Assembly: GCA_947455935.1 (NCBI GenBank)
Contig: CANGPV010000012.1
Span: 1-37,143 of the forward strand
Direction: 5' to 3'
DNA length: 37,143 nt
Source of the DNA: Comamonadaceae bacterium
GTDB taxonomy: Bacteria; Pseudomonadota; Gammaproteobacteria; Burkholderiales; Burkholderiaceae_C
The first letter of the stretch is position 1, and each line of letters begins with the position of its first letter. Positions 1,646 to 30,391 of this stretch are shown in pieces. The notes under the pieces are model-generated. The model was not told the origin of the DNA. It searched no databases and saw only the letters and a list, made by a program, of their open reading frames with translations. A program made the position numbers and the translations under genes.

Positions 1646-2301
1646 ACACACCTCTTCATCACATCGCTAACCGCAGCAAAAAACTCCCACCTCTTCGTGT
1701 TGGCATTGGCGGGCCTGTGGGTTCTGGCAAAACCACTTTGCTGGAAATGCTATGCAAAGCCATGCGTGATAACTATGACCTCATCGCCATCACCAACGAT
1801 ATTTACACCAAAGAAGATCAACGCTTGCTGACCATCAGCGGGGCTTTGCCTGCCGAGCGCATCATGGGCGTAGAAACTGGCGGGTGCCCGCACACGGCCA
1901 TACGCGAAGATGCCTCTATCAACTTAGAGGCTATTGACCGCATGTTAGAAAAATTCCCCAACGCCGACGTGGTGTTTGTGGAAAGCGGCGGAGATAACTT
2001 GGCTGCCACCTTCAGCCCCGAACTCAGCGACCTGACCATCTATGTGATCGATGTGGCGGCTGGCGAAAAAATTCCGCGCAAAGGAGGGCCAGGCATCACC
2101 AAAAGTGATTTGTTCATCATCAACAAAACCGATTTAGCCCCGCATGTTGGCGCTAACTTAGACATCATGCAATCGGACACCGAGCGTATGCGTGCCAGTC
2201 ACCAAGGTGTCAAACCTTATGTCATGACCAACCTTAAAACACAAATGGGCTTATCAGATGTGGTGAAATTCATCGAAACAAAAGGAATGTTGTTGTCATG
2301 A
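1642..2301 (+). CDS. ureG: Urease accessory GTPase UreG
   Basis: UreG is the SIMIBI-class GTPase whose GTP hydrolysis drives nickel transfer into urease. The 219-residue protein has a P-loop GPVGSGKT at residues 24-31, the metal-binding CPH motif in [15 protein letters not shown], the switch region [16 protein letters not shown] and the guanine-specificity motif NKTD. Length is normal for the family. Its ATG overlaps the end of ureF, and its stop overlaps the start of the next gene by four bases. That places a non-urease gene in apparent translational coupling with the urease operon. Confidence 0.97.
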
Positions 2302-3641
2302 AGTTTTTTCGTCTCTTGTTAGCGACCTATTTGCTGATATGTTCATTGGTCGCAACGGTTCAAGCTCAAAATTTAAAACTGCAATTGCTGGCCCAAGACC
2401 TCACTGCGCCTGTGCATCTGGAAGAGCTGCCCGATGGCAGCGGTCGCATGCTGGTGGTGCAGCAAGATGGCTTGGTCAAAGTCTTGATGCCAGATGGAAA
2501 CATACTGCCCGAACCTTTCTTAGATTTGCGCAGTCGCATGTTCTCTTTGCAAAATGATTTTGAAGAACGCGGCTTGTTGGGTTTTGCTTTGCACCCACAG
2601 TTTGTCCGTAACGGACGTTTCTTTGTGTCGTATTCAGCCCCGCTGCGAGACACTGCACCTCAAAATTGGAACCACACGCGCCGCGTGTCGGAATTCACCA
2701 CCAAGCCTCATAGCGTGGCGCCTGTCGATCTGGCCACTGAACGTGCGCTCATTGTTCAAGACTGGCCCAGTCGCAAACACAACGGCGGTGCCTTGGCATT
2801 TGGGCCAGATGGCATGTTGTTCATTGGTTTGGGCGACAGCGGGGCGTCCCATGGATTTGGCAAGTCTGTCATTTGGGAAGCCTTTAACGTACCTGCCGAA
2901 GGTTTGTTGTGGGACTTGATGGCGCAAGACAAGCACAGCTTGTACGGCAAAATTTTGCGTATCGATGTGGACCATGGTTATCCAGGCTATGCCATTCCCA
3001 ACGGCAACCCCTTGAATGCCTCACAAGGTCGACCTGAAATTTGGGCCTGGGGATTTCGTAATCCTTACCGCATGGCATTTGACCGAAATGGCAGCGGCGA
3101 CTTGTACGTCACAGCCATTGCCGAGACTTTGTGGGAGGCTGCTTACAAAGTGAAGCGTCCTGGTAATTTCGGCTGGCCTTTGATCGAAGCGTCGCATTGC
3201 GTGGATCGCCTGCAGCCGCGTAAACCACCTGCGCAGTGCCCTCGTCAAGGTGCAGGTGGCGAGCCTTTGGTCATGCCGGTTGTCGAGTACGCCAATATGC
3301 AAGTCAACCATCCCGACTCTTCTGCGCTCAATATCAAAGGCGTTGGAACCGCCGTGACGGGCGTGCGTATGTACCGCGGTGCAGCTATTCCCTTGTTGCA
3401 AGGAAAATTGGTGGTGGCAGATTGGAGCGCATCTTTCAAGCAAGCCTCAGGACAACTCTTTATCGCCACACCTCAATTGCAAAGCGACAAGCAATGGCCG
3501 CTTGAAAAACTCATGCAACTAGACAGTCGGGTGATCAGCTTGGCCGAAGACCGCAGCGGTGAAATTTATGTGTTAACCCATGAAGGTATGGGCCCCTTTG
3601 GTAATACCGGCAAAGTGTTTCGTTTGGTTTCTCAACCATGA
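2298..3641 (+). CDS. Secreted PQQ-dependent sugar dehydrogenase family protein
   Basis: This is a soluble glucose/sorbosone dehydrogenase-type beta-propeller, a family that oxidises sugars or related alcohols with PQQ; the true substrate cannot be read from sequence. Residues 1-23 form a Sec signal peptide ending VQA, so the protein should be periplasmic. Family motifs include [46 protein letters not shown] and GNFGWP. At 447 residues it is in the family range. The ATG at 2298 overlaps the ureG stop (ATGA) and its own stop overlaps the next gene (ATGA), so it is probably co-translated with urease genes. A functional tie to urea metabolism is not evident. Family confidence is high, substrate unknown. 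Confidence 0.85.
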
Positions 3642-4645
3642 TGAACACTCGCTCATGGCTTGCCCTGTTGGCATGTTCATGGGCGCTTCTGGGGCAAGCG
3701 CAAGAAGCCATCTATGGCGGCGAGCTTCAAGGGTTTGACTACCCCGCGCCCGTTCAACACTTTACTTTCACCTCGCAGCAACAAGCCATGCACATGGCTT
3801 ACTTGGATATACGTCCAGCCAAACCCAATGGCCATGTGGCTGTGTTGTTGCATGGCAAAAATTTTTGCGCCGCCACTTGGCAGTCCACTTACGAGGTGCT
3901 GCAGCAATATGGATTTCGGGTCATCGTTCCCGATCAAATTGGTTTTTGTAAATCCAGCAAACCTGCAGCCTACCAATACAGCTTTCAGCAACTGGCGCAC
4001 AACACCCATGCGTTGCTGGCCTCCTTAGGTATTTCACAAACCACTGTCATTGGCCATTCGACGGGTGGCATGTTGGCCACCCGATACGCCTTGATGTTTC
4101 CCGATGCGGTGAAACAATTGGTGATGGTCAACCCGATTGGCTTAGAGGATTGGAAAGCCATGGGTGTGCCCAGCTTAAGCGTTGACCAGTGGTACCAACG
4201 TGAATTGCAAGTGACCGATGAGCGCATACGCAACTATGAGCGAAGCACTTATTACGTCAACGAATGGAAGCCCGAATACGAACCTTGGGTTCAAATGATC
4301 GCAGGTATGTTTCGTGGGCCAGACAAACAAACAGTGGCTTGGCATTCAGCCCTGCTCTACGACATGATTGTCAATCAACCCGTGGTCTACGAATTTCCTT
4401 TGCTCAAAGTACCTACGCTGCTGTTGATAGGTGAAAAGGACAACACGGCCATTGGCAAAGACCTGGTCTCGCCCGAATTGAAAGCCCGCATGGGTTTGTA
4501 CCCCGAGTTGGCCAGACGCACGGCCAAGACCATACCCGGCGCTAGGCTGGTGCTGTTTCCCGATTTAGGCCATGCCCCTCAAATGCAAAACCCGCAACGC
4601 TTTCATACGGCCTTGGTGAACAACCTGATGGCGCTGCAAGATTGA
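3638..4645 (+). CDS. Secreted alpha/beta hydrolase
   Basis: A 335-residue alpha/beta hydrolase with an N-terminal signal peptide (about residues 1-21, ending GQA), so probably periplasmic. It has the oxyanion-hole region LLHGKNFCAATW, the nucleophile elbow GHSTGG with Ser141, a likely acid in LLIGEKDNT and the catalytic His in DLGHAPQMQNP. The chemistry would be ester, lactone or related hydrolysis; the substrate is unknown. ATG codons at 3638 and 3641 are both possible starts, and the first overlaps the stop of the sugar dehydrogenase gene. A sugar dehydrogenase followed by a hydrolase could make and open a lactone, but this is only inference from neighbourhood. It ends one base before the convergent SDR gene. 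Confidence 0.85.
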   Translation: MMNTRSWLALLACSWALLGQAQEAIYGGELQGFDYPAPVQHFTFTSQQQAMHMAYLDIRPAKPNGHVAVLLHGKNFCAATWQSTYEVLQQYGFRVIVPDQIGFCKSSKPAAYQYSFQQLAHNTHALLASLGISQTTVIGHSTGGMLATRYALMFPDAVKQLVMVNPIGLEDWKAMGVPSLSVDQWYQRELQVTDERIRNYERSTYYVNEWKPEYEPWVQMIAGMFRGPDKQTVAWHSALLYDMIVNQPVVYEFPLLKVPTLLLIGEKDNTAIGKDLVSPELKARMGLYPELARRTAKTIPGARLVLFPDLGHAPQMQNPQRFHTALVNNLMALQD

Positions 4646-4646
4646 T

Positions 4647-5327
4647 TCAGCGCTGTACCCAACCGCCACAGACGGGGAAGACTTGACCCACAAAACAATC
4701 TGCCTTGTCTGAGCATAAATACGCAGCGAACTCTGCATCCTCGTGGGCTTTCACCAACCGACCCAAGGGAACTTCACGTTGCAGTCGCTCTATAAAGCGA
4801 GGATTGACCTGAACCTCGGGCGGAAAATACGTGGGGTTCTCGACAAAGTTTTGCGCAATGGCGTTGACTTGAATGTTCAAAGGCGCCAACTCCACACCCA
4901 CGGCTTGCACCCAAGACAGTTGGGCTCCCCGTGCTGCGCTGTAGCTAGAAGCTCGCTTCATGCCTCGCAAGGCACTGGCACTGCCCATGACCAACAACTT
5001 GCCCTTGCCGCGAAGCTGCATCTGCGGCAACAGGGCTTTGAGCAGCCTGGGCAAGGGATGAACCATGATGTCAAACACCTCAGTCCATTCGGCATCTTTG
5101 ACTTCAGCAGCGGGGGTAGAAGGTGCAGACATGGCCAAGTTAGCGACCAAGACATCGATGTGTCCATGGCTTTGCACCAACTGTGCTGGGGCATCGGGCG
5201 CAATCAATGACCGGGTATCCGCCAACACTATTGCCCCATGTGCACGCAAAGCTTCACACAGCGCTGGGCCCATGAAGTCTTCGGCTTGGGTAACCACAAT
5301 TCGCAAACCTTGCAACATGCTAGTCAT
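4647..5327 (-). CDS. SDR protein with halohydrin dehalogenase fingerprint
   Basis: A 226-residue protein of the short-chain dehydrogenase fold that lacks the TGxxxGxG dinucleotide motif and has Arg in place of the catalytic Lys. The N-terminus reads VVTQAEDFMG, matching T-X4-F-X-G (T13, F18, G20). The active site is S116, Y129, R133, matching S-X12-Y-X3-R. These two patterns are the published fingerprint of halohydrin dehalogenases, which convert vicinal haloalcohols to epoxides and need no NAD(P). The stretch NFVENPTYFPPE followed by GQVFPVCGGW resembles HheC-type enzymes as I recall them. It is the last gene of a minus-strand operon, nine bases after the DUF6172 gene. It could instead be an unrelated degenerate SDR; enzyme activity is inferred. 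Confidence 0.75.
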   Translation of the reverse strand: MTSMLQGLRIVVTQAEDFMGPALCEALRAHGAIVLADTRSLIAPDAPAQLVQSHGHIDVLVANLAMSAPSTPAAEVKDAEWTEVFDIMVHPLPRLLKALLPQMQLRGKGKLLVMGSASALRGMKRASSYSAARGAQLSWVQAVGVELAPLNIQVNAIAQNFVENPTYFPPEVQVNPRFIERLQREVPLGRLVKAHEDAEFAAYLCSDKADCFVGQVFPVCGGWVQR

Positions 5328-5336: not shown

Positions 5337-5666
5337 CTACTCGGGTAAATCATCCTCGGGGTGCGCAAGCAAAACCACTTCGGGCTTGGGCGAGCGCTTG
5401 CCATGCTTGGCCAATATTTCTACATACACAGACTTGGCCTCTGCTTTGGCTAAGGCATCGATAGCAGCTATCAAAGCAGCCACATGCACCACGTCGGCAT
5501 CACTGGCTTGCAAACCGCATTTGCAATCGAAGTCCCAAAAGTCCACGCCTTCGGGTAGATCGCGTCGACGTTCACGTTTGAGGTATTTACGTACCTCGTG
5601 TTTGACAGCATCCAGCACCCTATCCGGGTGACGTCCATCGATGTGCAAGGGGAAATTTTTTCGCAT
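5337..5666 (-). CDS. DUF6172 family protein
   Basis: A 109-residue soluble protein of unknown function. It matches my memory of the DUF6172 family: HPDRVLDAVKHEVRKYLKRERRRDLPEGVDFWDFDCKCG near the start, then VVHVAALIAAIDALAKAEAKSVYVEILAKHGKR. It holds two cysteines in DCKCG and a strongly basic helix. The gene starts eight bases after the stop of the methyltransferase gene and is followed nine bases later by the SDR gene, so the set is probably one transcript. No signal peptide or membrane segment is visible, and no function can be assigned. Confidence 0.8.
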   Translation of the reverse strand: MRKNFPLHIDGRHPDRVLDAVKHEVRKYLKRERRRDLPEGVDFWDFDCKCGLQASDADVVHVAALIAAIDALAKAEAKSVYVEILAKHGKRSPKPEVVLLAHPEDDLPE

Positions 5667-5673: not shown

Positions 5674-6792
5674 TTATGCGGCCCTCACACCCAAGCGCCA
5701 TAACGAGGTCAGCTCTTGAGACCGCGCTGTATGCAATGCGTCCGAACTGTCACTGACTTTAGGGTGGCGCGGACGAATGTCCAATCGTCCCAAGACCTGC
5801 AGTCCTGCATCCGCAATCCATTGCAACAATTCCTCGCGGGTGCGCAAATTGAAGTGTTCGGCCAGATCAGACAGCAGCAACCAAGCCTCACCCCCCGGGG
5901 ATAGATGGGTCGCTACACCAGAGAGGAAAGTACGCAACATGCGGCTTTGAGGGTCATAAATCGCCTGCTCCAACAAGGAGGTGGCTTTGCCAGGTAACCA
6001 GGGTGGGTTGCACACAATCAAGGGTGACTGACCCGCTGGAAACACATCATCTATCTGTACCTGCGCTCTGTCGGATAAACCTAAGCGCTGCAAGTTGTCA
6101 GACGCACAACGCACGGCACGTTCACTGCTGTCAGTCGCTATGACCCGCTTGACGCCTCGCATCAACAACAGCGCAGCAACCACACCCGACCCCGTGCCTA
6201 TATCCCATGCCAACTCATTGGATGGCAAGGGCGATTGCGCCAACACATCCAGATATTCGCTGCGCACAGGTGCAAATACGCCGTAGTGAGGATGGATAAA
6301 GAAACGGTCAAGTCCTTGCACCTCGATAGGTACACCTTTGCGCTGCCATTCGTAAGCACTGATGATGCCCAGCAACTCCCGCACAGCCACCACCCTCACC
6401 GCTGCCGTTGCGGGCCCCCAAGCACTTTGCAGAGCCTCTTTGACATCGGGCGCTCTGCGCAGCGCAATACGGTAATCAGCTTCGATGGTCAAGGTCACCA
6501 TCGATAGGATGCGTGCTCGCTGCGCTTGCGCCATGCGGTAAGCATGAAAGGCTTGCGGCATGGCGTTGGTCGAGGTCTGAGACCTTACGGGACGATGGAC
6601 ACGACGCGTCAGCGCTTGCAGCAATTGCTTGGCTTGCTGAAAGTCTCCCTGCCAAAGCACGGCTGTTCCTGCACATGCCAAGCGATAAGCTTTGTCTGCG
6701 TTACAACTGTCGTCCACCACCTCAAAACGCTGAGGTGCTGCAGCCGAACTGGCTGAATACCAATGGTTCTTCAGCGTACCTAGCTCAAGCAT
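5674..6792 (-). CDS. Class I SAM-dependent methyltransferase (HemK/RsmC-like)
   Basis: A 372-residue methyltransferase. The C-terminal half has motif [15 protein letters not shown] and motif [19 protein letters not shown] motifs mark enzymes that methylate amide or base nitrogens, such as HemK/PrmC and RsmC/RlmG. The N-terminal half (about 170 residues) is a less conserved substrate domain, ending in [14 protein letters not shown]. The ORF track begins at 6894, but that extension overlaps the upstream gene. The ATG at 6792 overlaps the upstream stop in ATGCTTGA, a typical coupled start, and is preferred. The target molecule is unknown. It sits between the hydantoinase/oxoprolinase gene and the DUF6172 gene. 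Confidence 0.85.
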
Positions 6793-9700
6793 CAAGGTAA
6801 GCACCGCCGCCTGGCGTATGGATCTCAAACACATCACCCACTTGCATTTGCACTTGGTCGATATGTCCCAAGATCTGCACCTCGCCATCGGCACGAACCA
6901 CCCGGTTGATACCTGGTTGCCCCGCCCCGCCCCCAGCTAAACCAAAAGCTGGGTACACACGCCCGTTGGAGAGAATGCCCGCTGTCATGGGCTCTAAAAA
7001 CTGAATACGCCTTTGGCCACCATCACCCCCTCCATACTTGCCTTGTCCACCTGAGCCATGGCGCAAACTGTAAGACAGCAATCGCACAGGAAAGCGAAAC
7101 TCCAAGACCTCGGGATCTGTCAAACGTGAATTCGTCATATGGGTTTGCACGACCGATGTGCCTGCAAAACCTCCACAGGCCATACCGCTCTCGTCAAACA
7201 CAGGACCAGCGCCGCTGCCCCCCGAAATGGTTTCGTAATACTGGTAGGTATCGTTGCCAAAGGTGAAATTGTTCATGGTGGGTTGGCTGCCCGCCATCAC
7301 ACCCAAAGCACCGTACAGCGCGTTGGTGATGCAGCTTGATGTCTCCACATTGCCCGCCACCACGGATGCAGGTGGCAAGGGGTTGAGCATGCAACCTTCA
7401 GGAATGATGACGTGAATGGGTTTTAAACAACCCGCATTCAATGGAATGTCGTCTTCCACCAAGGTACGAAACACATACAACACCGCTGCCATGCAGACAG
7501 CACGGGGCGCATTGAAGTTATTGGTTTGCTGGGGCGAGGTACCTGTGAAATCAATCACTGCGCTGCGTGCAGACGCATCGATATGCACCTGCACTTGTAT
7601 CAAAGCACCGTTGTCCAGTGGAAAGCTAAAGCTGCGACGCGTATCGTCGCCAAACCGCTTGGCCAAACGGGTGATGGCACGGCGCACGGCTTCTTCGGCG
7701 TTGTCTTGCACATGCTGCATATAAGCCTGCACCACGGGCAAGCTGTAATGCGCCACCATGCGACTTAACTCTTGCGCGCCTTTTTCGTTGGCGGCAATTT
7801 GCGCTTTTAAGTCAGCCATGTTTTGTGCAGGGTTGCGACTGGGATAGGCACCGCTTTGCAGCAAAGCCAACATGGCTGCTTCACGCAAGACACCTTTTTC
7901 CACCAATTTGAAGTTTTGGATTTGCACACCCTCTTCGTCAATGGTGGTGGAGAACGGGGGCATGGAACCCGGCGAAATGCCACCAATATCAGCATGGTGG
8001 CCACGCGAGCCCACATAAAACGAAGGTTGGTCTAAGCCATCTAGGTACACCGGCGTGATGACGGTCACATCGGGTAAATGGGTACCGCCGTGGTAGGGGT
8101 CGTTCAAGACATACACATCGCCTGCCTGCATACGTCCAGCGTTATCACGTATCACTGTTTTGATGCTCTCACCCATGGAGCCCAAATGCACAGGCATATG
8201 CGGCGCGTTGGCAATCAACTCACCTTGCTGATTGAAAAGAGCGCATGAAAAATCCAAACGCTCTTTGATGTTGACCGAGTGAGCCGTGTTTTGTAATTGC
8301 AAACCCATTTGCTCGGCAATGTTCATGAACAGGTTGTTAAACACCTCGAGTTGCACAGGGTCCACCGAGGTACCCGCAGCAAAGGCAGTTTGTCGCGGCG
8401 TGATGCGTTGCAACACCAGATGGTTCAGTGCCGTCAACTTGGCTTGCCAACCCATCTCGATGACGATGGTGGCATGACGTTCCACCACCAGCGCGGGACC
8501 CGTCAGCACATCGCCTGCTTGCATGTCCTCCCGTCGTACCAAGGCAGCTTCTTGCCACGCCCCGTTCAAGTACATACGCGTGGATGTATGCGCTGGTCTA
8601 CCACGTGAAGGAAGAAGGTCTTGCAGCTTCTCCGGCATAGGTTCACCCGCCAGCACGGCTTCAACCGATACAGCTTCCACCACCAAAGCTTTGTCAGACA
8701 TGATGAAAGCAAAGCGCCGCAGATAGGCTTCTTCAAATGCTTGCTTCACTTCTTGCAGACTTCCCATGGGCACCATCAAGGCTGAGTCGGTGCCTGCATA
8801 GCGAATATGCACCCTCTCCCGAGTGTGCAACTCGCCACCACCGATGATTTGATTTTGCAAAGCGGTTTGTGCTTGAACAGCCAACTCTGACAGGGTATTG
8901 CGCAACTCGGGCCACAGCGAGTCTTGCAAGGTTTTTTCCAGCGCTAGTTCTTTGATCAAACTTTGCGCTGCCAAGCCCATGCCATAGGCCGACAACACAC
9001 CAGCCATGGGGTGAATCAAAATCTTTGACATACCCAGTGCATCAGCCACTGCACAGGCGTGCTGTCCGCCTGCACCCCCAAAGCACTGCAAGGTGTAGGC
9101 GGTGACGTCATAGCCTCGAGCCACTGAAATTTTTTGAACAGCATGCGCCATTTGCTGAACCGCGATATGCACAAAACCTTCGGCAACTTCTTCGGGTGTT
9201 TTGCCTACCAGTTGCGACAGGTGAGCAAACCCTTGTGCAACCACTTGCGCATCCAAAGCTTGGTCACCTTGGGGGCCAAATACAGCAGGGAAGTAGGCAG
9301 GTTGCAGTTTGCCCAGTTGCACATTGGCGTCGGTCACGGTCAGCGGGCCGCCTTTGCGGTAACACGCGGGTCCTGGGTCTGCACCTGCGCTTTGAGGTCC
9401 CACCCGAAAACGTGATCCATCAAATTGCAACAGCGATCCGCCACCTGCCGCCACCGTGTGGATGTGCAACATGGGTGCACGCATTCGCACACCGGCAACT
9501 TGCGTATCAAACTCGCGTTCAAGCTCCCCCGCGTAATGGCTGACATCCGTCGAAGTGCCACCCATGTCAAAGCCAATGACTTGTGTAGCGCCCTCAAGCC
9601 CATCGCCATGTGCAAAGGCCATGTCAGCGGTTTTGGCCATGCCGACGATGCCGCCAGCGGGTCCCGACAAAATTGCATCTTTGCCTTGAAAGGCTTGTGC

Positions 9701-16144: not shown

Positions 16145-18043
16145 TCAGCCTACGAGTTTTAAGTTGGCGCTGGCTGTCGCGTCGGTGGCTTTTATAAATT
16201 GGGCAAAACGCTGTTTAACTGAGGCTTCTATTCCCTGTGCATCCAAACCTAAAGCAGACAGAATTTTTTGCGGATCTCCATGTTCGGTGAACACATCAGG
16301 CACACCTAATCGCAACACTGGAATCGTGATTCCTGCGTCTTGCAAGGCTTCAAGCACAGCAGAACCTGCACCACCCATCAGAGCACCCTCTTCCACCGTG
16401 ACCACAGCCTCATGGCTGGCAGCGATGCGAAGCAGCAATTCGGTATCCAAAGGCTTGGCCCAGCGCATATTGGCCACGCTGGCATTGAGTTGCTCTGCTG
16501 CTTGCAGCGCGGGGTACAGCAGGGTGCCAAACGCCAAAATTGCCACACCTTTGCCTTGGCGACGCATTTCACCTTTGCCAAAGGGCAAAGTGGATAGGCC
16601 GGCGCTCATGGGCGTGCCCACACCTGCACCGCGAGGGTAGCGTACAGCCACGGTATGGTCTTGTGCATGGGCGGTGCTGAGCAACAGGCGGCATTCGTTT
16701 TCGTCTGCTGGGCAAGCGATGCTCACCTGGGGTATGCAACGCAGGAAAGGAATGTCGTACACACCCGCGTGGGTAGGACCGTCGGCGCCCACAATGCCTG
16801 CGCGGTCCAGCGCCAACACCATGGGCAGCTTTTGCAAAGCCACATCGTGGATGAGCTGGTCATACGCACGTTGCAAGAAGGTGGAGTAAATCGCCACCAC
16901 AGGCTTTAAGCCCTCACAGGCCAAACCCGCCGCAAAGGTCAGCGCATGTTGCTCGGCGATGCCTACATCGTGGTAACGGTCGGGAAAGCGATGGTGAAAC
17001 TCCACCATGCCCGAGCCTTCTCGCATGGCGGGTGTGATGGCTACCAATTTAGGGTCAACTGCGGCCATGTCACACAACCAGTTGCCAAATACTTGGCTGA
17101 AGGTTTGCTTAGGCGCAGTGGTTGGCGGGACCAAGCCTATTTGGGGGTCGAATTTGCCGGGGCCGTGGTAGGCGATAGGGTCGGCCTCTGCCAGCTTATA
17201 GCCTTGACCTTTGCGGGTGACCACGTGCAAGAACTGAGGTCCTTGCAAATGCTTGATGTTCTCGAGCGTAGGAATCAATGAATCCAGGTCGTGGCCGTCT
17301 ATGGGGCCGATGTAGTTGAAACCAAATTTTTCAAACAAGGTGGCCGGCACGACCATGCCTTTGGCTTGTTGCTCAAAGCGTCTTGCCAAGTCAAACAAAG
17401 GGGGCGCATTTTTCAAGACTTGCTTGCCCACTTCTTTGGCGGCCGAGTAAAAACGCCCGCTCATGAGTTGCGCCAAATAGCGGTTGAGCGCTCCGACAGG
17501 AGGGCTGATGGACATGTCGTTGTCGTTCAGGATAACCAACAAATTGGTATCAGACACACCCGCGTTGTTGAGGGCTTCAAACGCCATGCCAGCGGTCATG
17601 GAGCCATCGCCAATGATGGCCACGCAACGGCGTTGCTCGCCCTTTTGCTTGGCCGCCAAGGCCATGCCCAAAGCGGCTGAAATACTGGTGGAAGAGTGCG
17701 CGGTACCAAAAGCATCGAACTCGCTTTCGTCTCGCTTGGGAAAACCTGCCACGCCATTCAACTGGCGCAAGGTGTTCATTCGCTCACGGCGACCGGTGAG
17801 GATTTTGTGCGGATAGGTTTGATGACCCACGTCCCACACCAAACGATCGTGGGGGGTATTAAAAACGTAATGCAGTGCGACGGTTAATTCGACTGTGCCG
17901 AGGTTGGAACTGAGGTGGCCGCCTGTTTTAGCCACGCTTTCCAGCAAAAACGAACGCAACTCGTCCGCCAAGGGTCGCAGCTGCGCAGAGGACAAGCGTC
18001 GCAAATCTGAGGGGGACTGGATACTTTCTAACAATGAATTCAT
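16145..18043 (-). CDS. dxs: 1-deoxy-D-xylulose-5-phosphate synthase
   Basis: DXS condenses pyruvate with glyceraldehyde 3-phosphate, using thiamine diphosphate, as the first step of the MEP isoprenoid pathway that feeds carotenoids, quinones and the geranylgeranyl tail of bacteriochlorophyll. The 632-residue protein has [35 protein letters not shown], the ThDP motif GDGSMTAG (145 on) with NDND (173-176), and the transketolase Pyr-domain stretch [16 protein letters not shown]. Length is normal. The start ATG has AAGAGG upstream. About 60 bp upstream lies a PpsR-type operator, and a terminator insulates it from the preceding gene, so dxs seems to have its own light/redox-controlled promoter. 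Many bacteria have a second dxs elsewhere; this one may be the phototrophy copy. Confidence 0.96.
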
Positions 18044-18103
18044 TTGACTGCCTCTTTAGCCAACCGTGCGCTACCTTTAATGTAAGCCCAAGCCCCTGTT
18101 GTG

Positions 18104-18121
18104 TGTCAATTAAAGTTGACG
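18104..18121. promoter_or_regulatory. Candidate PpsR operator upstream of dxs
   Basis: TGTCAATTAAAGTTGACG fits TGT-N12-ACA with one mismatch in the last position. Its core GTCAATTAAAGTTGAC differs at only one or two positions from the cores before bchG and bchF in this window. It lies 61-78 bp upstream of the dxs start codon and downstream of the terminator at 18154-18185. The binding factor is inferred from ppsR at 30.4 kb. Confidence 0.75.
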
Positions 18122-18153
18122 CTTAAGGGTATTCACTAGGGTCTTGCACCATG

Positions 18154-18185
18154 AAAAAACCCCACAACGCTTTCGCATTGTGGGG
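18154..18185 (-). terminator. Rho-independent terminator after the SMP-30-like gene
   Basis: On the minus strand CCCCACAATGC, loop GAAA, GCGTTGTGGGG form an 11-bp stem (one T-G pair) followed by six T. It sits 25 bp after the stop of the SMP-30-like gene and before the dxs promoter region. Confidence 0.9.
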
Positions 18186-18210
18186 CCAGCATCGCCGGTT
18201 AAGGGTCAGT

Positions 18211-19338
18211 TTAGCTCAAGGCATGACCTTGTGCATTCACATACAAAGCGTAAATGGAGGTAGAACCGCACATGAACAAACGGTTGCGCTTGGTGCCGCC
18301 GAAGCACAGGTTGGCAATAACTTCAGGTGTATGCAAGAAAGCCAACAAAGTGCCATCGGGGTGATGGACACGAACGCCGTTGGTTTCCATACCGCCCCAA
18401 CCCCAGCCGCACCACACATTGCCATCGGTGTCACAACGGATACCGTCGGTGAAACCAGGTGCAAAGTCGGCGAACACTTTGGGGTTGCTGAGTTTTTGGT
18501 CTTTCACATCAAACACGATGATGTTGGCAGGGTTGCCAGGACCGTCGGTCGCGCCTGTGTCAACCACATAGCATTTCTTGAAATCAGGCGAGAAGCAAAT
18601 GCCGTTGGGACGACGCATGGGGCCTTCGGCTGCCACGGTGACTTTGCCATCGGGCGCGATGCGGTACACGCGTGTGGGCAATTCGAACTCAGCTTTGTGG
18701 CCTTCATAGGGGCCCATGATGCCGTAGCCAGGGTCGGTGAAGTAGATGGAACCATCAGGTGTGGTGGCTGCATCGTTGGGGGCATTGAGTTTCTTACCGC
18801 CGAAGCTGTCGCACAACGTTGTCCATGTGCCGTCGTATTCGCGACGACGGACACGGCGTGTGTCGTGTTCCATGGCGATCAAACGGCCGTGGATATCACG
18901 TGAGTGGCCGTTGGAGTAGCCGGAGTCACTCATGTAGGTGCTGACAGCGCCGTTTTCTTCGTTCCAACGCAACACGCGGTTGTTAGGAATGTCACTCCAC
19001 AGCAAATTACCCCAGTCACCCATCCACACGGGGCCTTCGCACCACAGTGCGGCGTCATGGCCTTGACCGTGCCAAATACGTTGCAAAGTGGCATTGCCTT
19101 GGCGACCAGTGAAGCGCTTGTCCAGCACTTCAAACGCAGGCTCAGGATAGGTGACAGGATGGTTACCCGTCCAATCACGGCCTTGCTGGAATTTGTCGTT
19201 GGCACTGGCAGTGACACTGGCCGTCGCGGCGGCTACACCAGCAGCGGCGCTGGCTAAGAAGCCACGGCGAGCAAGATTTTCAGGCTTGGCAGATGCTTCT
19301 GCGCTGGTTGTTACTGCATTGTCTGTGGGTTTTGTCAT
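18211..19338 (-). CDS. Tat-exported SMP-30/gluconolactonase-like protein
   Basis: A 375-residue six-bladed beta-propeller protein of the SMP-30/gluconolactonase/LRE family, whose members are calcium-dependent lactonases. A twin-arginine signal is visible (ARRGFLASAAAG, RR at 24-25), so it should be exported folded to the periplasm. Family stretches include CEGPVWMGDWGNLLWSDIPNNRVLRW, KKLNAPNDAATTPDGSIYFTDPGYG, RRPNGICFSPDFKKCYVVDTG and FTDGIRCDTDGNVWCGWGWGG, with the expected Glu, Asn and Asp metal ligands. GGAG precedes the ATG. It lies between dxs and the HiPIP gene on the same strand but has its own terminator, and the HiPIP terminator separates it from that gene. A role in phototrophy is not evident; it may be a sugar lactonase. 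Confidence 0.88.
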   Translation of the reverse strand: MTKPTDNAVTTSAEASAKPENLARRGFLASAAAGVAAATASVTASANDKFQQGRDWTGNHPVTYPEPAFEVLDKRFTGRQGNATLQRIWHGQGHDAALWCEGPVWMGDWGNLLWSDIPNNRVLRWNEENGAVSTYMSDSGYSNGHSRDIHGRLIAMEHDTRRVRRREYDGTWTTLCDSFGGKKLNAPNDAATTPDGSIYFTDPGYGIMGPYEGHKAEFELPTRVYRIAPDGKVTVAAEGPMRRPNGICFSPDFKKCYVVDTGATDGPGNPANIIVFDVKDQKLSNPKVFADFAPGFTDGIRCDTDGNVWCGWGWGGMETNGVRVHHPDGTLLAFLHTPEVIANLCFGGTKRNRLFMCGSTSIYALYVNAQGHALS

Positions 19339-19467
19339 GCTGTCTCCGAGTAGTGATGAAAAAAGGTGAGGCCTGATCCTCTGTCTTTAATTTCACTTAG
19401 ACAATAAGCGTAAACCCCTTAATTTTTGAAGTTTATTTATCAAAACCCTATTGCTGCTTTGCACAAG

Positions 19468-19499
19468 AAAAAACCCCTGGGCCCGAAGCCACAGGGGTT
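19468..19499 (-). terminator. Rho-independent terminator after the HiPIP gene
   Basis: On the minus strand AACCCCTG, a bulged T, GGC, a TTCGG loop, GCC and CAGGGGTT form a stem followed by a run of T. It lies about 40 bp after the HiPIP stop codon. The rest of the 200-bp gap (19339-19538) is AT-rich and should carry the promoter of the SMP-30-like gene; I see no clear motif there. Confidence 0.85.
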
Positions 19500-19538
19500 G
19501 TTGTTGAGGCTGAAAACAGCCCCAAGCCAATGAAAGGA

Positions 19539-19844
19539 TTAACCTTTTTTGGCGTAGGCGCTGCACCAACCAGCGGCGGACACTTGCTTGCCGGCAAACA
19601 AGGGACACATGCCAGCTTTCTCGCCAGCCTTGCCTTGGAACAAAGCGCAGTTGCCACAGTTTTGGGTGGCAGCATGGGTGGGGAATTTCTTAGCGTCGAC
19701 TTTGCTGGAATCAGCTTTGTAGCCCAAAGCGCCTGCTTGAGGGTCAGTTTCTGCAACCATGTCAGCAGCAAAGGCAACACGGCCTGCCAACAGTGCGGCG
19801 CTACCTGCGCTGATTTGAATAATGAATTCGCGACGACGGGTCAT
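19539..19844 (-). CDS. High-potential iron-sulfur protein (HiPIP)
   Basis: A 101-residue exported protein with a Tat signal (RRREFIIQISAGSAAL, cleavage near residue 26) and four cysteines at 63, 66, 80 and 94 in the pattern C-x2-C-x13-C-x13-C (QNCGNCALF, GMCPLF, GWCSAY). This is the ligand pattern of HiPIP, a small periplasmic [4Fe-4S] electron carrier. In purple bacteria such as Rubrivivax, HiPIP reduces the photo-oxidised reaction centre, so its place next to tspO and bchH fits a role in photosynthetic electron flow (inference). GGAG precedes the ATG and a terminator follows. The upstream region carries a CCCTAG box resembling that of bchG. Confidence 0.94.
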   Translation of the reverse strand: MTRRREFIIQISAGSAALLAGRVAFAADMVAETDPQAGALGYKADSSKVDAKKFPTHAATQNCGNCALFQGKAGEKAGMCPLFAGKQVSAAGWCSAYAKKG

Positions 19845-19937
19845 AAAAGTCTCCGATGAAAGTTACCCCTAAGGGCGAAATAAAGCTGCGTATTCTGACT
19901 CAGCTCTAGGGTTATACCAAAACGCCTCTTGCATACC

Positions 19938-20498
19938 CTAGGTTGACACTGGGATAAGTCGCCACAAAGCCTGAACAAATGGGCCATTCAAGAGGATGGT
20001 GTCGTGGTTGAGCACACCTGCCGCACTGACCCACAGCAGGTAGGGGACCACCAACACGGAGGCCCACCGCGACTCGCGCCACAGACCCTGTAGCAGCCAA
20101 GTGATGCTCAGCCATAAAAACAACCACTCCAGCATGGCCCAATCGGGGCGGTGCAAATGAAAATAGAGATAGCTCCAAGCAATATTTAATGAGCCATTCA
20201 ACAGGTAAAGGGCCCACACTTTGGCACGACGTGCAGGCGTGGGGGCCGCGTGCCACGCCAGCCAAGCGCTCACGGCGCACAGGCTGAAGATGAGCGTCCA
20301 AATGGCCCCGAATGCTGCGTCGGGTGGCTTCCATGGCGGATGCTTGAGTTGCAAATACCAAGGACCGAGGTCGGTGAGCAGGTTTCCAACACCCGCAATG
20401 CCAAAACTGATGGCGAAACACAGGGCCAAAGTTCGCCAATGTGGCGGTGATGTCAGCCCAGCAGGCGATGGGGATAGGGGTTGGTTCATGTTATTCAT
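19938..20498 (-). CDS. tspO: TspO/MBR tryptophan-rich sensory protein
   Basis: A 186-residue membrane protein of the TspO family with five hydrophobic segments. Typical motifs are GPWYLQLKHPPWKPPDAAFGAIWTLIF and YLLWVSAAGVLNHDTILLNG. TspO binds porphyrins; in Rhodobacter sphaeroides it lowers expression of photosynthesis genes when oxygen is high, perhaps by exporting or degrading tetrapyrrole intermediates. An N-terminal extension of about 20 polar residues precedes the first helix. ATG codons at 20498 and 20489 are both possible. The gene is divergent from bchH, and two PpsR-type sites lie in the shared 150-bp gap, so it may be co-regulated with the pigment genes. Confidence 0.93.
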   Translation of the reverse strand: MNNMNQPLSPSPAGLTSPPHWRTLALCFAISFGIAGVGNLLTDLGPWYLQLKHPPWKPPDAAFGAIWTLIFSLCAVSAWLAWHAAPTPARRAKVWALYLLNGSLNIAWSYLYFHLHRPDWAMLEWLFLWLSITWLLQGLWRESRWASVLVVPYLLWVSAAGVLNHDTILLNGPFVQALWRLIPVST

Positions 20499-20579
20499 GA
20501 TGAAAAACCGTGTCTGAATTACAAAAATTAGGCATACACAGGGTTTTCCCGAGTGTTTACCCGCTCAAAAGCCACATAA

Positions 20580-20597
20580 TGTCAACATGGATTGACA
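20580..20597. promoter_or_regulatory. PpsR operator upstream of bchH
   Basis: TGTCAACATGGATTGACA is an exact TGT-N12-ACA palindrome, the known PpsR/CrtJ operator. It lies 52-69 bp before the bchH start in the 150-bp gap shared with divergent tspO. Its right end contains a -35-like TTGACA facing bchH. Confidence 0.85.
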
Positions 20598-20604
20598 CTA
20601 TGAA

Positions 20605-20622
20605 CGTCAATTGTTCTTAACG
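20605..20622. promoter_or_regulatory. Weak second PpsR-like site upstream of bchH
   Basis: CGTCAATTGTTCTTAACG is a degenerate match (CGT-N12-ACG) seven bases after the perfect site, 25 bp centre to centre. PpsR binds tandem sites cooperatively in Rhodobacter with a similar gap, which is the only reason to list it. Confidence 0.4.
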
Positions 20623-20648
20623 CCGACCTTTCTCATCGAGCACACTGC

Positions 20649-23600
20649 ATGACGGTTAACCGCAAGCAAGGCACATCGCAAGACGCCAGCACCCGCGTGG
20701 TGATTGTCACCATGGATACCCACCTCAACAGTGCGGTGGACAGAGCGCGTGAGGGTTTGAAGCGCTTGTTGCCTGACCTGAGCTTAACCATCCACTCGGC
20801 CTCCGAGTTTTCTGCCAACCCTGCACACTTGGCGCAATGCCGTCACGACATTGCCCACGGCGACGTGATTATCGTCACCATGCTGTTCATGGAAGACCAC
20901 TTCCTCCCCATCTTGGCCGATCTGCAAGCCAGGCGCGACCACTGCAGCGCCATGGTGTGTGCCATGTCGGCGGGCGAAGTGGTCAAACTCACCCGCTTGG
21001 GCAAGCTCGATATGTCCAAGCCCGCCAGCGGGCCCATGGCGTTTTTGAAAAAAATGCGCGGCAACCCCAAGGACGACAGCGAAAAAGCCGCCGCAGGTGC
21101 CAAGCAAATGAAAATGCTTCGCCGCATTCCGCAAATGCTGCGCTTCATTCCCGGCACAGCCCAAGACTTGCGAGCTTATTTCCTGACGCTGCAATATTGG
21201 TTGGGCGGCTCGCAAGAAAACATCCAAGGCATGGTGCATTACTTGGTAGACCGCTATGCGTCGGCCAAGGTCACCTCCAAAGCCAAGGTTTTGCCCCCTG
21301 TGGAGTACCCGGAAGTCGGTATTTACCACCCGCGCATGAAAACGCGGTTGACCGACCAACTGAGCGAGTTGCCCACGGTGGTTTCGCCCGACAAAGCACG
21401 TGGACGGGTAGGTCTGATTCTTCTTCGCTCTTATTTGATAGCAGGTAACGCTCAGCACTATGACGCGGTCATCGCCGCCATGGAAGTGCAAGGCCTCAAT
21501 GTGGTGCCGGTGTTCGCCTCGGGGTTGGATTCACGCCCTGCCATTGATGCGTATTTTTTGAACAACGGCCAGACCACGGTGGATGCGGTGGTGTCGTTGA
21601 CGGGCTTCTCGCTCGTCGGTGGTCCCGCCTACAACGACGCCCATGCCGCCGAAGAAATTTTGGCCAAGCTCGATGTGCCTTACATCGCAGCCCACCCCGT
21701 GGAATTCCAAACCCTAGACCAATGGGGCGGCTCTGACCGTGGCTTGTTGCCTGTGGAGTCCACCATCATGATCGCCATCCCCGAATTGGATGGCTCCACC
21801 GTGCCCATGGTGTATGGCGGTCGGCCCGGTGCCGACGGCGTGACTTGCACCGGTTGCCAACAGCGCTGCACCTTCACCCAGCAGCACAAACAACAAGACA
21901 TGTTCACCTGCACCGAGCGTACCGCCATGTTGTCTGCGCGGGTGGGCAAATTGGTCGATTTACGCCGCTCTGAACGTGCCCAGCGTAAGGTGGCCATGGT
22001 CATCTTTAACTTCCCGCCCAACTCGGGCAACACCGGCACCGCCGCTTATTTGGCGGTGTTCGAGTCGCTGTTCAACACCATGGTGGCGATGAAGGCACAG
22101 GGCTACAGCGTGGACCTGCCCGAGAGCGTGGACGCGTTGCGCGATGGCATTTTGTACGGCAACGCCAAACAGTATGGTGCCGACGCCAATGTGCACACCC
22201 TCATTCCCGCCGAGCAACACATCCGCCGCGAAAAGTGGCTGACCGAAATTGAAGCACAGTGGGGCCCTGCGCCCGGCAAACAGCTGACCAACGGCCAATC
22301 CATCTTCATCATGGGCCACCAATACGGCAACCTCTTGGTAGCCGTGCAACCCTCCTTCGGCTACGAAGGCGACCCCATGCGTTTGCTGTTTGAAAAAGGG
22401 TTTGCGCCCACCCATGCGTTTTCGGCTTTCTACCGCTACCTGAAGGAAGACTTCAACGCCAACGCCGTGTTGCACTTTGGTACCCATGGCGCATTGGAGT
22501 TCATGCCCGGCAAGCAAAACGGCATGTCGGCCTTGTGCTGGCCCGACCGCATGATTGGCGAGTTGCCCAATTTCTACCTCTACGCTTCCAACAACCCCTC
22601 CGAAGGCGCCATCGCCAAGCGCCGCGCCGCAGCCACCTTGGTGAGCTACCTCACGCCGCCTGTGGCTGAGTCGGGCTTGTATGCCGGATTAGCAGACCTC
22701 AAAGCCTCGGTCGACCGCTGGCGCAGCCTGGACCTTGAGCAAGAACACGAACGCGCCGAGCTGATGGCCTTGGTGCAAGCCCAAGCCGCTGAGCTGGATT
22801 TGGCCAGCCTAGAACCTGCTTGGCAGCTACAAAGCGACAGCCCCGATTTGAACGCTGCCAAACGCATCCAAAAGCTGGGCGAGCAGATGCTAGAGCTGGA
22901 ATACACCTTGATCCCCCACGGCTTGCATGTGGTGGGCAAAGCGCCAACGGACAGCGAGCGGGTGGACATGCTCATGGCCATGGCAGAAGCCAGCTACGAA
23001 GCCAAACCGGCTCGCAGCGCTGTTGAGGCCTTGGTGGCGGGTAGCTCACCTGCCAAAGCACTGGCAAAAAGTGGTCTGGCACATCAAGAGGCCCATGCGA
23101 CTTTGTTTGACAAACTGGCGGATGCCAACCGCATGATGCTGATGGACAGCGAGGTCAACGGCTTGATCGCCGCCTTGGATGCTCGCTATATACGTCCCGC
23201 GCCGGGCGGCGACATCATGCGCACGCCCGAGGTCTTGCCCACGGGGCGCAATTTGCACGGTTTTGACCCTTTCCGCATTCCCAGCGCATACGCGGTGAAA
23301 GACGGAGCAACACAAGCCGACAAACTCATTGCCCGCTACCAACAAGACGGCAACCCCCTGCCCGAATCGGTGGCCATGGTGCTGTGGGGCAGCGACAACC
23401 TCAAAACCGAGGGCAGCCAAATCGCCCAAGTCTTGCGACTGTACGGCGCCAAGCCCCGCTTTGACAGCTATGGCCGCTTGGTGGGTGCCAGCCTGATTCC
23501 GCTGGCCGAGTTGGGCCGCCCCCGCATCGACGTGGTGGTGACTTTGTCGGGCATCTTCCGCGACCTCATGCCCTTGCAGATCAAACTCATCGCCGAAGCT

Positions 23601-24440
23601 GCCTTGCTGGCCGCCCAGGCCGACGAATCGCCCGAAGACAATTTTGTGCGTAAACACGCTTTGGCCTACCAAGCCGAACACGGCTGCGATCTAGAAACCG
23701 CAGCGCTGCGGGTGTTTGGCAACGCCGACGGCGCTTACGGTTCCAATGTGAATAACTTGGTGGAAAACGGCGGCTGGGAAGACGAGGACGAACTCGCCAA
23801 AACCTACAGCCAACGCAAGGGCTTTGCCTATGGCGTGAGCGGCAAACCCACGCAGCACAACGGCTTGCTCAAAAGCGCCTTGGCCGATGTGCAACTGACC
23901 TACCAAAACCTCGATTCGGTGGAGTTGGGTGTGACCACCGTGGATAACTATTTCGACACCTTGGGTGGCATCACCCGCGCGGTGCGTCAAGCCAAGGGCG
24001 GCGTGGACACGCCGGTCTACATTGGCGACCAAACACGGGGCGATGGCTTGGTGCGCAGTTTGTCCGAACAAGTGTCTTTGGAAACACGTACCCGCATGCT
24101 CAACCCCAAGTGGTACGAAGGCATGTTGGCGCATGGCTACGAGGGCGTGCGGCAAATCGAGGTGCACATCACCAACACCATGGGATGGTCGGCCACCACA
24201 GGACAGGTGCAACCTTGGGTGTACAAACAGCTCACCGAAACCTTTGTGCTCAACCCCGAGATGCGTGACCGCCTCGCCAAACTCAACCCCACCGCTTCGG
24301 CACGCTTGGCCAACCGCTTGATCGAAGCCTCGGACCGCGCCTATTGGCAACCCGACGCCGACATGATGGACCGCTTGCGCCAAGCCAGCGAAGAGCTGGA
24401 AGACCGCCTGGAAGGCGTTTTTGAAGGCAGCACGAACTAA
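20649..24440 (+). CDS. bchH: Magnesium chelatase subunit H (protoporphyrin-binding)
   Basis: BchH is the large porphyrin-binding subunit of Mg chelatase, which inserts Mg2+ into protoporphyrin IX with BchI and BchD at the branch point to bacteriochlorophyll. The 1263-residue protein is collinear with the CobN/BchH family throughout: MLFMEDHFLPILADLQARRD and MRGNPKDD near the N-terminus, GGRPGADGVTCTGC and FNFPPNSGNTGTAAYLAVFESL in the middle, GTHGALEFMPGKQ, and IDVVVTLSGIFRDLMPLQIKL, NVNNLVENGGWEDEDELA toward the end. The start codon has only a weak upstream purine stretch. It heads a plus-strand block bchH-I-D-O and is preceded by PpsR operators. In many purple bacteria bchH instead sits between bchB and bchL. 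Confidence 0.97.
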   Translation: MTVNRKQGTSQDASTRVVIVTMDTHLNSAVDRAREGLKRLLPDLSLTIHSASEFSANPAHLAQCRHDIAHGDVIIVTMLFMEDHFLPILADLQARRDHCSAMVCAMSAGEVVKLTRLGKLDMSKPASGPMAFLKKMRGNPKDDSEKAAAGAKQMKMLRRIPQMLRFIPGTAQDLRAYFLTLQYWLGGSQENIQGMVHYLVDRYASAKVTSKAKVLPPVEYPEVGIYHPRMKTRLTDQLSELPTVVSPDKARGRVGLILLRSYLIAGNAQHYDAVIAAMEVQGLNVVPVFASGLDSRPAIDAYFLNNGQTTVDAVVSLTGFSLVGGPAYNDAHAAEEILAKLDVPYIAAHPVEFQTLDQWGGSDRGLLPVESTIMIAIPELDGSTVPMVYGGRPGADGVTCTGCQQRCTFTQQHKQQDMFTCTERTAMLSARVGKLVDLRRSERAQRKVAMVIFNFPPNSGNTGTAAYLAVFESLFNTMVAMKAQGYSVDLPESVDALRDGILYGNAKQYGADANVHTLIPAEQHIRREKWLTEIEAQWGPAPGKQLTNGQSIFIMGHQYGNLLVAVQPSFGYEGDPMRLLFEKGFAPTHAFSAFYRYLKEDFNANAVLHFGTHGALEFMPGKQNGMSALCWPDRMIGELPNFYLYASNNPSEGAIAKRRAAATLVSYLTPPVAESGLYAGLADLKASVDRWRSLDLEQEHERAELMALVQAQAAELDLASLEPAWQLQSDSPDLNAAKRIQKLGEQMLELEYTLIPHGLHVVGKAPTDSERVDMLMAMAEASYEAKPARSAVEALVAGSSPAKALAKSGLAHQEAHATLFDKLADANRMMLMDSEVNGLIAALDARYIRPAPGGDIMRTPEVLPTGRNLHGFDPFRIPSAYAVKDGATQADKLIARYQQDGNPLPESVAMVLWGSDNLKTEGSQIAQVLRLYGAKPRFDSYGRLVGASLIPLAELGRPRIDVVVTLSGIFRDLMPLQIKLIAEAALLAAQADESPEDNFVRKHALAYQAEHGCDLETAALRVFGNADGAYGSNVNNLVENGGWEDEDELAKTYSQRKGFAYGVSGKPTQHNGLLKSALADVQLTYQNLDSVELGVTTVDNYFDTLGGITRAVRQAKGGVDTPVYIGDQTRGDGLVRSLSEQVSLETRTRMLNPKWYEGMLAHGYEGVRQIEVHITNTMGWSATTGQVQPWVYKQLTETFVLNPEMRDRLAKLNPTASARLANRLIEASDRAYWQPDADMMDRLRQASEELEDRLEGVFEGSTN

Positions 24441-24492
24441 AGCCAGCCCGCTTTCACCACGCCGACCTCGGCGCATTGCTTAAGATCACGCC

Positions 24493-25521
24493 ATGGCTAC
24501 TCCCTTCCCCTTCTCCGCCATCGTCGGCCAAGACGAGATGAAACTCGCTATCCAAATTGTCGCCATCGACCCCAAGGTCGGCGGCATCTTGGCACTGGGT
24601 GACCGAGGTACGGGCAAATCCACCGCGGTGCGGGCTTTGGCCGATTTACTCCCCCCTTTGCAAGTGGTGGTGGGATGCCGCTATGGCTGCGACCCCGCCA
24701 GCAACAGCGCCACCTGCAGCGACTGCGCCAGCCTGAAAGTGGCTGGCAAACGCCCCAAAACCGACACCCGCCCGGTTCCTGTGGTCGACTTGCCGCTGGG
24801 CGCCAGCGAAGACCGCGTGGTCGGCGCACTTGATTTAGAAAAAGCTTTAAGCCAAGGCGTGAAAGCGTTTTCACCTGGCTTGTTGGCACAGGCCAACCGA
24901 GGCTTTTTGTACATCGACGAAGTGAATTTGCTGGAAGACCATTTGGTCGATTTGCTGATCGATGTGGCGGCCTCGGGCGAAAACGTGGTCGAGCGTGAAG
25001 GCCTGTCGGTGCGCCACCCCGCCCGCTTTGTGTTGGTGGGCAGCGGCAACCCCGAAGAAGGCGAACTGCGTCCCCAGCTGTTGGACCGGTTTGGTTTGTC
25101 GGTGGAGGTACGCACACCGCAAGACTTAGACCAACGCATCGCCGTCATCAAACGCCGCGACGCCTTCGAGCGTGACCCCCAAGGCTTTCGCGAGGAATGG
25201 GCCGCCGAGAACGAGCGTTTGCGCGATCACATCGTCAAGGCCCGCAAGCTGCTCGACAAAGTCAAGGTAGGCGACGACTTGCTGCGCTTGTGCGCACAGT
25301 TGTGCCAATCGCTGGGCACCGATGGCTTACGTGCCGAACTCACCCTCATGCGGGCCTGCCGCTCGCTGGCGGCGATGCAAGGCTACAAAGCCGCCACATC
25401 AGCGCATTTACGCACGGTGGCCCCCATGGCCTTGCGCCACCGCTTGCGCCGCAATCCCTTGGACGACACCGGTTCGGGCACCCGTGTGGAACGCGCCTTG
25501 AACGAGGTGCTGGGCACGTGA
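24493..25521 (+). CDS. bchI: Magnesium chelatase ATPase subunit I
   Basis: BchI is the AAA+ ATPase that forms rings with BchD and powers Mg insertion. The 342-residue protein has FPFSAIVGQDEMKLAI at the start, Walker A GDRGTGKST (residues 36-44), Walker B FLYIDEVNLLEDHLVD, sensor region LVGSGNPEEGELRPQLLDRFGL and the C-terminal helical domain with ALRHRLRRNPLDDTGSG. Length is normal. It begins 52 bp after bchH, and its TGA overlaps the GTG start of bchD (GTGA), which suggests translational coupling and matched stoichiometry. Confidence 0.98.
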   Translation: MATPFPFSAIVGQDEMKLAIQIVAIDPKVGGILALGDRGTGKSTAVRALADLLPPLQVVVGCRYGCDPASNSATCSDCASLKVAGKRPKTDTRPVPVVDLPLGASEDRVVGALDLEKALSQGVKAFSPGLLAQANRGFLYIDEVNLLEDHLVDLLIDVAASGENVVEREGLSVRHPARFVLVGSGNPEEGELRPQLLDRFGLSVEVRTPQDLDQRIAVIKRRDAFERDPQGFREEWAAENERLRDHIVKARKLLDKVKVGDDLLRLCAQLCQSLGTDGLRAELTLMRACRSLAAMQGYKAATSAHLRTVAPMALRHRLRRNPLDDTGSGTRVERALNEVLGT

Positions 25522-27344
25522 ACTTGGCTTGGGACGACGCGCTGTGGGCGCTGGCGGCCCTGCATATCGACCCCGTGGGTTTGCGTGGCATTTGGCTGCG
25601 AGCCCCCCATGGTCCGGTGCGCGACGAATGGCTGGCCATGCTGCAGCACCTGCGCCCCGAAGTCAGGCGGCTGCCTAACAACATCGACAGCGAACGCCTT
25701 TTAGGGGGCTTGGATTTAAGCGCCACCTTGAACGGTGGCAGACCCATCACCCAAGCGGGTTTGCTGGCGCAATCGGACCAGTCTCTTTTGCTGGCCCCCA
25801 TGGCCGAGCGCATGGCCCATGAAGCGGCGGCCATTGTGGCGCAGGTGCTCGACAACGGCCGCGTCACGCCCCACGGCGGTGGCGACACCCAAGACGCAAG
25901 GCTGGGGCTGATCGCTTTGGACGAGGCTTTGGAGGACGAACCGCCCATGGCCGAAGCCTTGCAAGAACGTCTGGGTATTTGGCTGGACTTGCGCCACCTT
26001 GGGCGGCCAGAAGAAGCCAGCGACGAGGTCTTGGGGCTGCTGGGTGTGCTGTGCAGCCCCGACGGCGAGGCCGAAGAAGAGCGCCAAGCGGTGTTGCAAC
26101 GTTTTCGCACACTGCGCTTGAATGATCAGCAAATACAGGCCATCACCCAGATGGCACAGGCCATGGGCATCGCCAGTTTGCGGGGTCCCTTGGCCTGTGT
26201 GCGCTTGGCCTGTGTGCTGGCGGCGTTGCGTGACAGCGATGCGGTTGAAGACCACGACTTAGGGCGTGCAGCCCGTTTGTGCCTGACACCACGTGCCACC
26301 CACATGCCCGCCCCACCCGAGCAAGAGGCGCCACCTGAGCCTCCCCCCGAACCGCCTGACGAAGCCCCGCCAGAAGACGACCCAGCCCCCGAGCCGCCGC
26401 CCGCTGAACCCGAGCCGCCCGAGAACCCACCCGATACACCTGAAGCAGAAACACCGCCGCAAGACATGGGCGAGTTGCTGCTGGAAGCCGCCTTGGCCAG
26501 CCTGCCCCCCGATGTCTTGGCGCGGTTGGCGCAGTCGCCCAAAAGCCACATCAAAGGGGGCGGCCAAAGCCGAAGCGGCGCGATTCGGCACAGTCGCAGC
26601 CGTGGCTCGCCCCTGCCGCCCCGCCCGGGCTTGCCGCGCCAAGGCGCACGCTTGCACGTGCTGGCCACCTTGGGACACGCCGCCCCTCGGCAAAAATTGC
26701 GTAGCCCTGCGCCATCCGCCCAAGGTGCGGCAAGCCGTTTAGCCATTCGTGCCGAAGACTTTCATATCCACCGCTTTGCCGAGCGAACCCAAACCTGTTT
26801 GATCTTCGCCATCGATGCCTCGGGTTCGGCGGCGCTGCACCGCTTGGCCGAGGCCAAGGGTGCGGTGGAGTTGCTGTTGGCGCAGTCGTATGCACGGCGC
26901 GATCAGGTCTGTGTGCTGGGGTTTCGCGGCACCCATGCCGAGGTGTTGCTACCCCCCACCAAATCGCTGGTGCGAGCCAAACGCAGCTTGGCGGGCTTGC
27001 CCGGTGGCGGCGGCACACCCCTGCCCCATGCGCTGCAACTGGCCTTGGAACTGGCTTTGCAGCAACGCCGCTTGGGCGTCACCCCCAGCTTGGTGATGTT
27101 GTGCGATGGACGTGCCAATGTGAGTTTGCAAGGTGTGGGCGGCAGGGCACAGGCCTTGCAAGAATCGTTGTCCTTGGCGCAAGCGTGGCGCTCTTACGGA
27201 TTGCAAAGCATTTGGATAGACACCTCGGCCCGCCCCGAGCCGCAAGCCGAGCAAATTGCACTGGCCATGGGTGCGCACTATGTGCCCCTGCCTCAAGCCA
27301 ATAGCCAGCGCATGGCCCAAGTGGTGCTAGCCGCCCAAAGCTGA
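25518..27344 (+). CDS. bchD: Magnesium chelatase subunit D
   Basis: BchD bridges the BchI ring to BchH. The GTG at 25518 overlaps the bchI stop and gives a 608-residue protein (the ORF track runs on into bchI in another frame). The N-terminal half is a degenerate AAA+ module without a good P-loop. Then comes a Pro/Glu-rich linker at about residues 263-317 (PPEPPPEPPDEAPPEDD). The C-terminal half is a von Willebrand A domain with the MIDAS motif DASGS (from residue 433) and GGGGTPLPHAL, which binds Mg and contacts BchI. The order AAA, acidic-proline linker, VWA is standard; this copy is somewhat longer than Rhodobacter BchD. One base separates it from bchO. Confidence 0.96.
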   Translation: MNLAWDDALWALAALHIDPVGLRGIWLRAPHGPVRDEWLAMLQHLRPEVRRLPNNIDSERLLGGLDLSATLNGGRPITQAGLLAQSDQSLLLAPMAERMAHEAAAIVAQVLDNGRVTPHGGGDTQDARLGLIALDEALEDEPPMAEALQERLGIWLDLRHLGRPEEASDEVLGLLGVLCSPDGEAEEERQAVLQRFRTLRLNDQQIQAITQMAQAMGIASLRGPLACVRLACVLAALRDSDAVEDHDLGRAARLCLTPRATHMPAPPEQEAPPEPPPEPPDEAPPEDDPAPEPPPAEPEPPENPPDTPEAETPPQDMGELLLEAALASLPPDVLARLAQSPKSHIKGGGQSRSGAIRHSRSRGSPLPPRPGLPRQGARLHVLATLGHAAPRQKLRSPAPSAQGAASRLAIRAEDFHIHRFAERTQTCLIFAIDASGSAALHRLAEAKGAVELLLAQSYARRDQVCVLGFRGTHAEVLLPPTKSLVRAKRSLAGLPGGGGTPLPHALQLALELALQQRRLGVTPSLVMLCDGRANVSLQGVGGRAQALQESLSLAQAWRSYGLQSIWIDTSARPEPQAEQIALAMGAHYVPLPQANSQRMAQVVLAAQS

Positions 27345-27345
27345 C

Positions 27346-28215: not shown

Positions 28216-28220
28216 CGAGT

Positions 28221-30370: not shown

Positions 30371-30391
30371 TTTTCATTTGACGGCGCCAAA

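Follow-up and report, generated by a model that had tools for sequence, protein, structure and literature searches.

The window, as we call the whole stretch of 37,143 nucleotides analysed here, carries ureF, ureG, a GSDH gene, an alpha/beta hydrolase gene, a convergent hheD-like gene, a DUF6172 gene, a methyltransferase gene and hydantoinase/oxoprolinase-type genes, in this order. The nearest relatives keep the order, except that some have no GSDH gene. The features at and around hheD are:

4647..5327, minus strand: hheD-like gene, 226 amino acids (open frame 5327..4647), 66% identity to HheD2 (7b73) over 222 residues
5268..5291, minus strand: motif 1, T-Q-A-E-D-F-M-G, codons 13-20, predicted nucleophile pocket loop replacing TGxxxGxG
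4929..4982, minus strand: motif 2, S-X12-Y-X3-R, codons 116-133, with predicted catalytic Ser116, Tyr129 and Arg133
4815..4853, minus strand: QNFVENPTYFPPE segment, codons 159-171, replacing the SDR P-G cofactor loop in the alignment
5337..5666, minus strand: DUF6172 gene (PF19669), 9 nt upstream of hheD
5674..6894, minus strand: MTS-type methyltransferase-like gene upstream of DUF6172, start uncertain, conserved in the nearest relatives
3638..4645, plus strand: convergent alpha/beta hydrolase gene with an N-terminal hydrophobic segment and a Ser nucleophile (GHSTGG), given as context

DUF6172 and hheD are probably co-transcribed. Translation of hheD may start at Met4 (5318; a 223-residue form) rather than at Met1: an AGG lies 9 nt before the second ATG, whereas it is immediately adjacent to the first. 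Behind ureG, positions 2298-4645 hold the GSDH-type (glucose/sorbosone dehydrogenase-like) and alpha/beta hydrolase genes; the GSDH gene is missing in loci L091 and L094, the hydrolase gene in L098 and L110.

Halohydrin dehalogenases (HHDHs) are marked by the fingerprints T-X4-F/Y-X-G and S-X12-Y-X3-R, SDRs by T-G/A-X3-G/A-X-G and S-X10-14-Y-X3-K (PMC4989007, PMC11976700). Inspection of the hheD-like protein revealed T13, F18 and G20 as the first HHDH fingerprint and S116, Y129 and R133 as the second. An earlier note had placed both patterns at these residues, leaving the strand unstated, and the 226-residue minus-strand frame bears this out. The length and the two segments named there were found as well, NPTYFPPE at residues 164-171 and the C-terminal GQVF..GGW as GQVFPVCGGW at residues 214-223. 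The classical NAD(P)-dependent combination of a Gly-rich T-G-X3-G-X-G with Ser-Tyr-Lys was not found in the protein. In the alignment with SDRs the Gly-rich motif, the NNAG motif (VANLA here), the catalytic Lys and the P-G loop were all replaced, which argues against a chance resemblance to HHDHs in what would be a classical NAD(P)-dependent SDR oxidoreductase. Pfam and NCBIfam do return generic SDR families alone, every NCBIfam score being far under its cut-off, as such an enzyme would lead one to expect. Yet the nearest relatives are HHDHs, by a margin of 30-40 identity points, and we regard a classical SDR as highly improbable.

Both HHDH motifs were present in 81 of 81 sequences, i.e. the hheD-like protein and its best 80 relatives found across 84,980 genomes, and the six motif residues were invariant in an alignment of 39 sequences with 61-85% identity to the hheD-like protein. 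None of the seven SDR paralogues examined from the same genome had the HHDH motifs; all seven had the NAD(P) Gly-rich motif and the catalytic lysine. The motifs were also seen in all seven HHDH reference sequences and were absent from FabG. The letters of the HheA2, HheC and HheG references were checked against PDB chains; the motif comparison with FabG used its putative sequence. The pN/pS of hheD against its five nearest relatives was about 0.13-0.15 with synonymous sites near saturation, and hheD is evidently under purifying selection. Because the motif residues are invariant, both motifs occur throughout the 81 sequences and pN/pS is low, the motif match is not due to chance. The motif pair as such is reliable, since 19 enzymes selected by motif were confirmed to be active (PMC4989007). 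The same data bear on whether hheD is a decayed or non-functional remnant. Its patchy distribution and its absence from the near relative G362 (see below) would fit a remnant; with the frame intact, all motif residues present and pN/pS this low, we consider it very hard to uphold.

The best PDB sequence matches were 7b73 (E 2.4e-92), 8xxb (HheD8; 1.3e-84) and HheB (6.7e-49), followed by matches of 1.9e-34 and weaker. The entry 7b73 is HheD2 (PMC9629495). In the alignment the hheD-like protein was 65.8% identical to HheD2, 60.8% to HheD8, 42.5% to HheB and 35% to the dehalogenase 6a41, followed by HheA2 (30%), FabG (27%), HheC (26%) and HheG (25%); HHDHs beyond the D and B types and ordinary SDRs lie at approximately 22-35%. 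For the D-type, HheD19 to HheD38 are 57-95% identical to verified HheDs, with less than 30% between subtypes (PMC4989007, a 2016 review). At 66% to HheD2 and 61% to HheD8 the hheD-like protein falls within the D-type range, and its identity to HheB exceeds the 30% quoted between subtypes.

HheD2 shares with the hheD-like protein both motifs and the RGMKRAS and NPTYFP segments, and differs in about one third of the residues. HheD8, solved as a triple mutant with chloride, has the segment ENPTYFPPEVQ in common with it. It is nearly identical to a gene of Thauera aminoaromatica S2 (locus L088), where the wild type reads MALRSSY inside motif 2 versus MKRASSY in the hheD-like protein. HheB (4zd6) has both motifs and a similar length, but belongs to another subtype, its loop being AQHWTQNKEYFWPE as compared with AQNFVENPTYFPPE. 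HheC (1pwx), HheA2 (1zmo) and HheG (5o30) likewise have both motifs and the SDR fold, yet are other subtypes with 25-30% identity; the corresponding segment of HheA2 is NNPTYFP, while the ENPTYFPPE of HheD8 is identical to that of the hheD-like protein. FabG and the classical SDRs share the Rossmann fold, but their NAD(P) site and their catalytic Lys are absent from the hheD-like protein.

A tree placed the hheD-like protein in a clade of D- and B-type enzymes with a support of 100/96, away from the NAD(P)-dependent SDRs. Types A and C grouped with 6a41 (99/98), and types A, B, C and D were separate from the SDRs (97/86). HheG formed a very long branch of unsure position, and the subtype comparison and tree covered types A, B, C, D and G. 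The AlphaFold2 model of the monomer had a mean pLDDT of 84.7, with low confidence for the C-terminal residues 220-226 and the loop 118-124. Its best fold matches in the PDB were HheD2 (TM 0.90), HheB (0.89) and HheD8 with chloride (0.88), all ahead of any NAD(P) enzyme, and the top ten chains were those of HheD2, HheD8, HheB and 6a41. General SDR folds also reach a TM of approximately 0.8; therefore the fold alone is not decisive and the sequence decides. Taken together, the gene very probably encodes a D-type halohydrin dehalogenase (HheD subfamily), an SDR-fold enzyme that would need no cofactor, with its chemistry assigned by homology. Both the phylogeny and the structure model, proposed in the earlier note as checks, thus point to the HHDHs. 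Of the 'possible new halohydrin dehalogenase' announced there, the assignment stands on sequence, motifs, tree and model, but the novelty does not: the HheD subtype has been described since 2014, and the gene is new solely as another HheD sequence, one more for a biocatalytically useful subtype.

The chemistry of the gene product, which we infer from that of the family, would follow HheC, where F12 contacts the halide and the roles of Ser, Tyr and Arg are established (PMC4989007, PMC11976700). F18 of the hheD-like protein aligns with this F12. By homology Ser116 would hold the vicinal haloalcohol, and Tyr129, its pKa lowered by Arg133, would take up the hydroxyl proton. Ring closure of the alkoxide would give the epoxide, and the leaving halide would enter a pocket whose lining is made up of the T13-F18-G20 loop and the segment QNFVENPTYF. 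In the reverse reaction small anions (halide, azide, cyanide, nitrite) could open epoxides. In fresh water the enzyme may serve to remove small halohydrins or epoxides that the cell encounters. Against the dehalogenase reading, no gene for an epoxide hydrolase adjoins hheD, and a search of the genome, which is 85% complete, gave none of the EHN type. The neighbouring alpha/beta hydrolase was considered for this function and rejected: such enzymes have an Asp nucleophile and HGxP, whereas its nucleophile is Ser (GHSTGG) and it reads HGKN, and the loci L098 and L110 have hheD but not the hydrolase gene.

At E <= 1e-60 hheD matches were found in 39 of 301 sampled genomes of the taxonomic family, spread over 32 of 141 genera. 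A sample of the order, requested at a completeness of at least 90%, had hheD in 21 of 399 genomes including the present one. On these counts the HHDH family is not small but patchy, and the statement in the earlier note that it is small is out of date. The HheD subtype is widespread in Betaproteobacteria and their neighbours. A search for a mobile origin of hheD gave no viral match and, among plasmids, one distant relative at 45%. D-type HHDHs are thus common in freshwater and soil Proteobacteria without evident halocarbon catabolism nearby; such wide occurrence makes the question of HHDH function in nature more acute, and the interest of the gene lies in its natural role, not in its identity.

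Within the genus hheD was present in 22 of 84 genomes, a patchy occurrence that marks it as dispensable. In 20 of these 22 it lies directly downstream of a DUF6172 gene on the same strand, with distances between match ends from a one-base overlap to about 50 bases (stop codon included). DUF6172 itself was seen in 66 of the 84 genomes, with or without hheD, and hheD gives the impression of an accessory gene attached to it. The 99% complete genome G362 has an otherwise matching locus that lacks hheD alone (L106, 1440-1560); the hydrolase match ends about 10 bases before DUF6172 there. The hheD locus and G362 thus form a natural with/without pair for testing the role of hheD. Outside the genus no neighbours common to hheD loci were found once shadow ORFs overlapping hheD had been removed, and for this reason the gene neighbourhood was dismissed as a pointer to function.

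The natural role of most HHDHs is uncertain, and the 2016 review leaves room for other physiological functions (PMC4989007). The protein might belong to the HheD family as an SDR without cofactor and yet have a natural reaction other than dehalogenation, halohydrin activity being a side activity; an example would be epoxide opening or closing on a halogen-free metabolite, perhaps linked to the DUF6172 gene. Such a role would fit the finding that hheD occurs in ordinary bacteria of fresh water and soil, where no catabolic genes are conserved beside it, and its position directly after DUF6172 in 20 of the 22 copies of the genus. On the other hand, verified HheD enzymes do dehalogenate (PMC4989007) and the HheD8 structure was solved with chloride. 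The DUF6172 link is absent outside the genus and therefore says little about chemistry. We regard a role other than dehalogenation as possible but rather unlikely; it bears on the natural role and leaves membership of the HheD subfamily untouched. Less probable still, and quite speculative, is that HheD is a kept operon partner of DUF6172 in a small-genome phototrophic freshwater clade, where it would handle a natural halohydrin or epoxide. If so, the hheD locus could reveal what D-type HHDHs do in the cell.

Reaction-centre genes were present in 20 of the 22 genomes with hheD and in 35 of the remaining 62 of the genus (Fisher p 0.004). We rejected this link to phototrophy as functional evidence: 20 of the 22 genomes with hheD have the same locus, so that the association probably reflects common ancestry. 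The host had been called phototrophic in the earlier note, in agreement with two Photo_RC genes (pufL/pufM-type) in its genome, located on a contig (C36) other than that of hheD, and with a bacteriochlorophyll/photosynthesis-type cluster in the window. This cluster, at positions 16145-34737, comprises dxs, CobN/Mg-chelatase H, ChlI- and VWA-type chelatase subunits, a UbiA-type synthase, an FAD reductase and a nitrogenase-like oxidoreductase.
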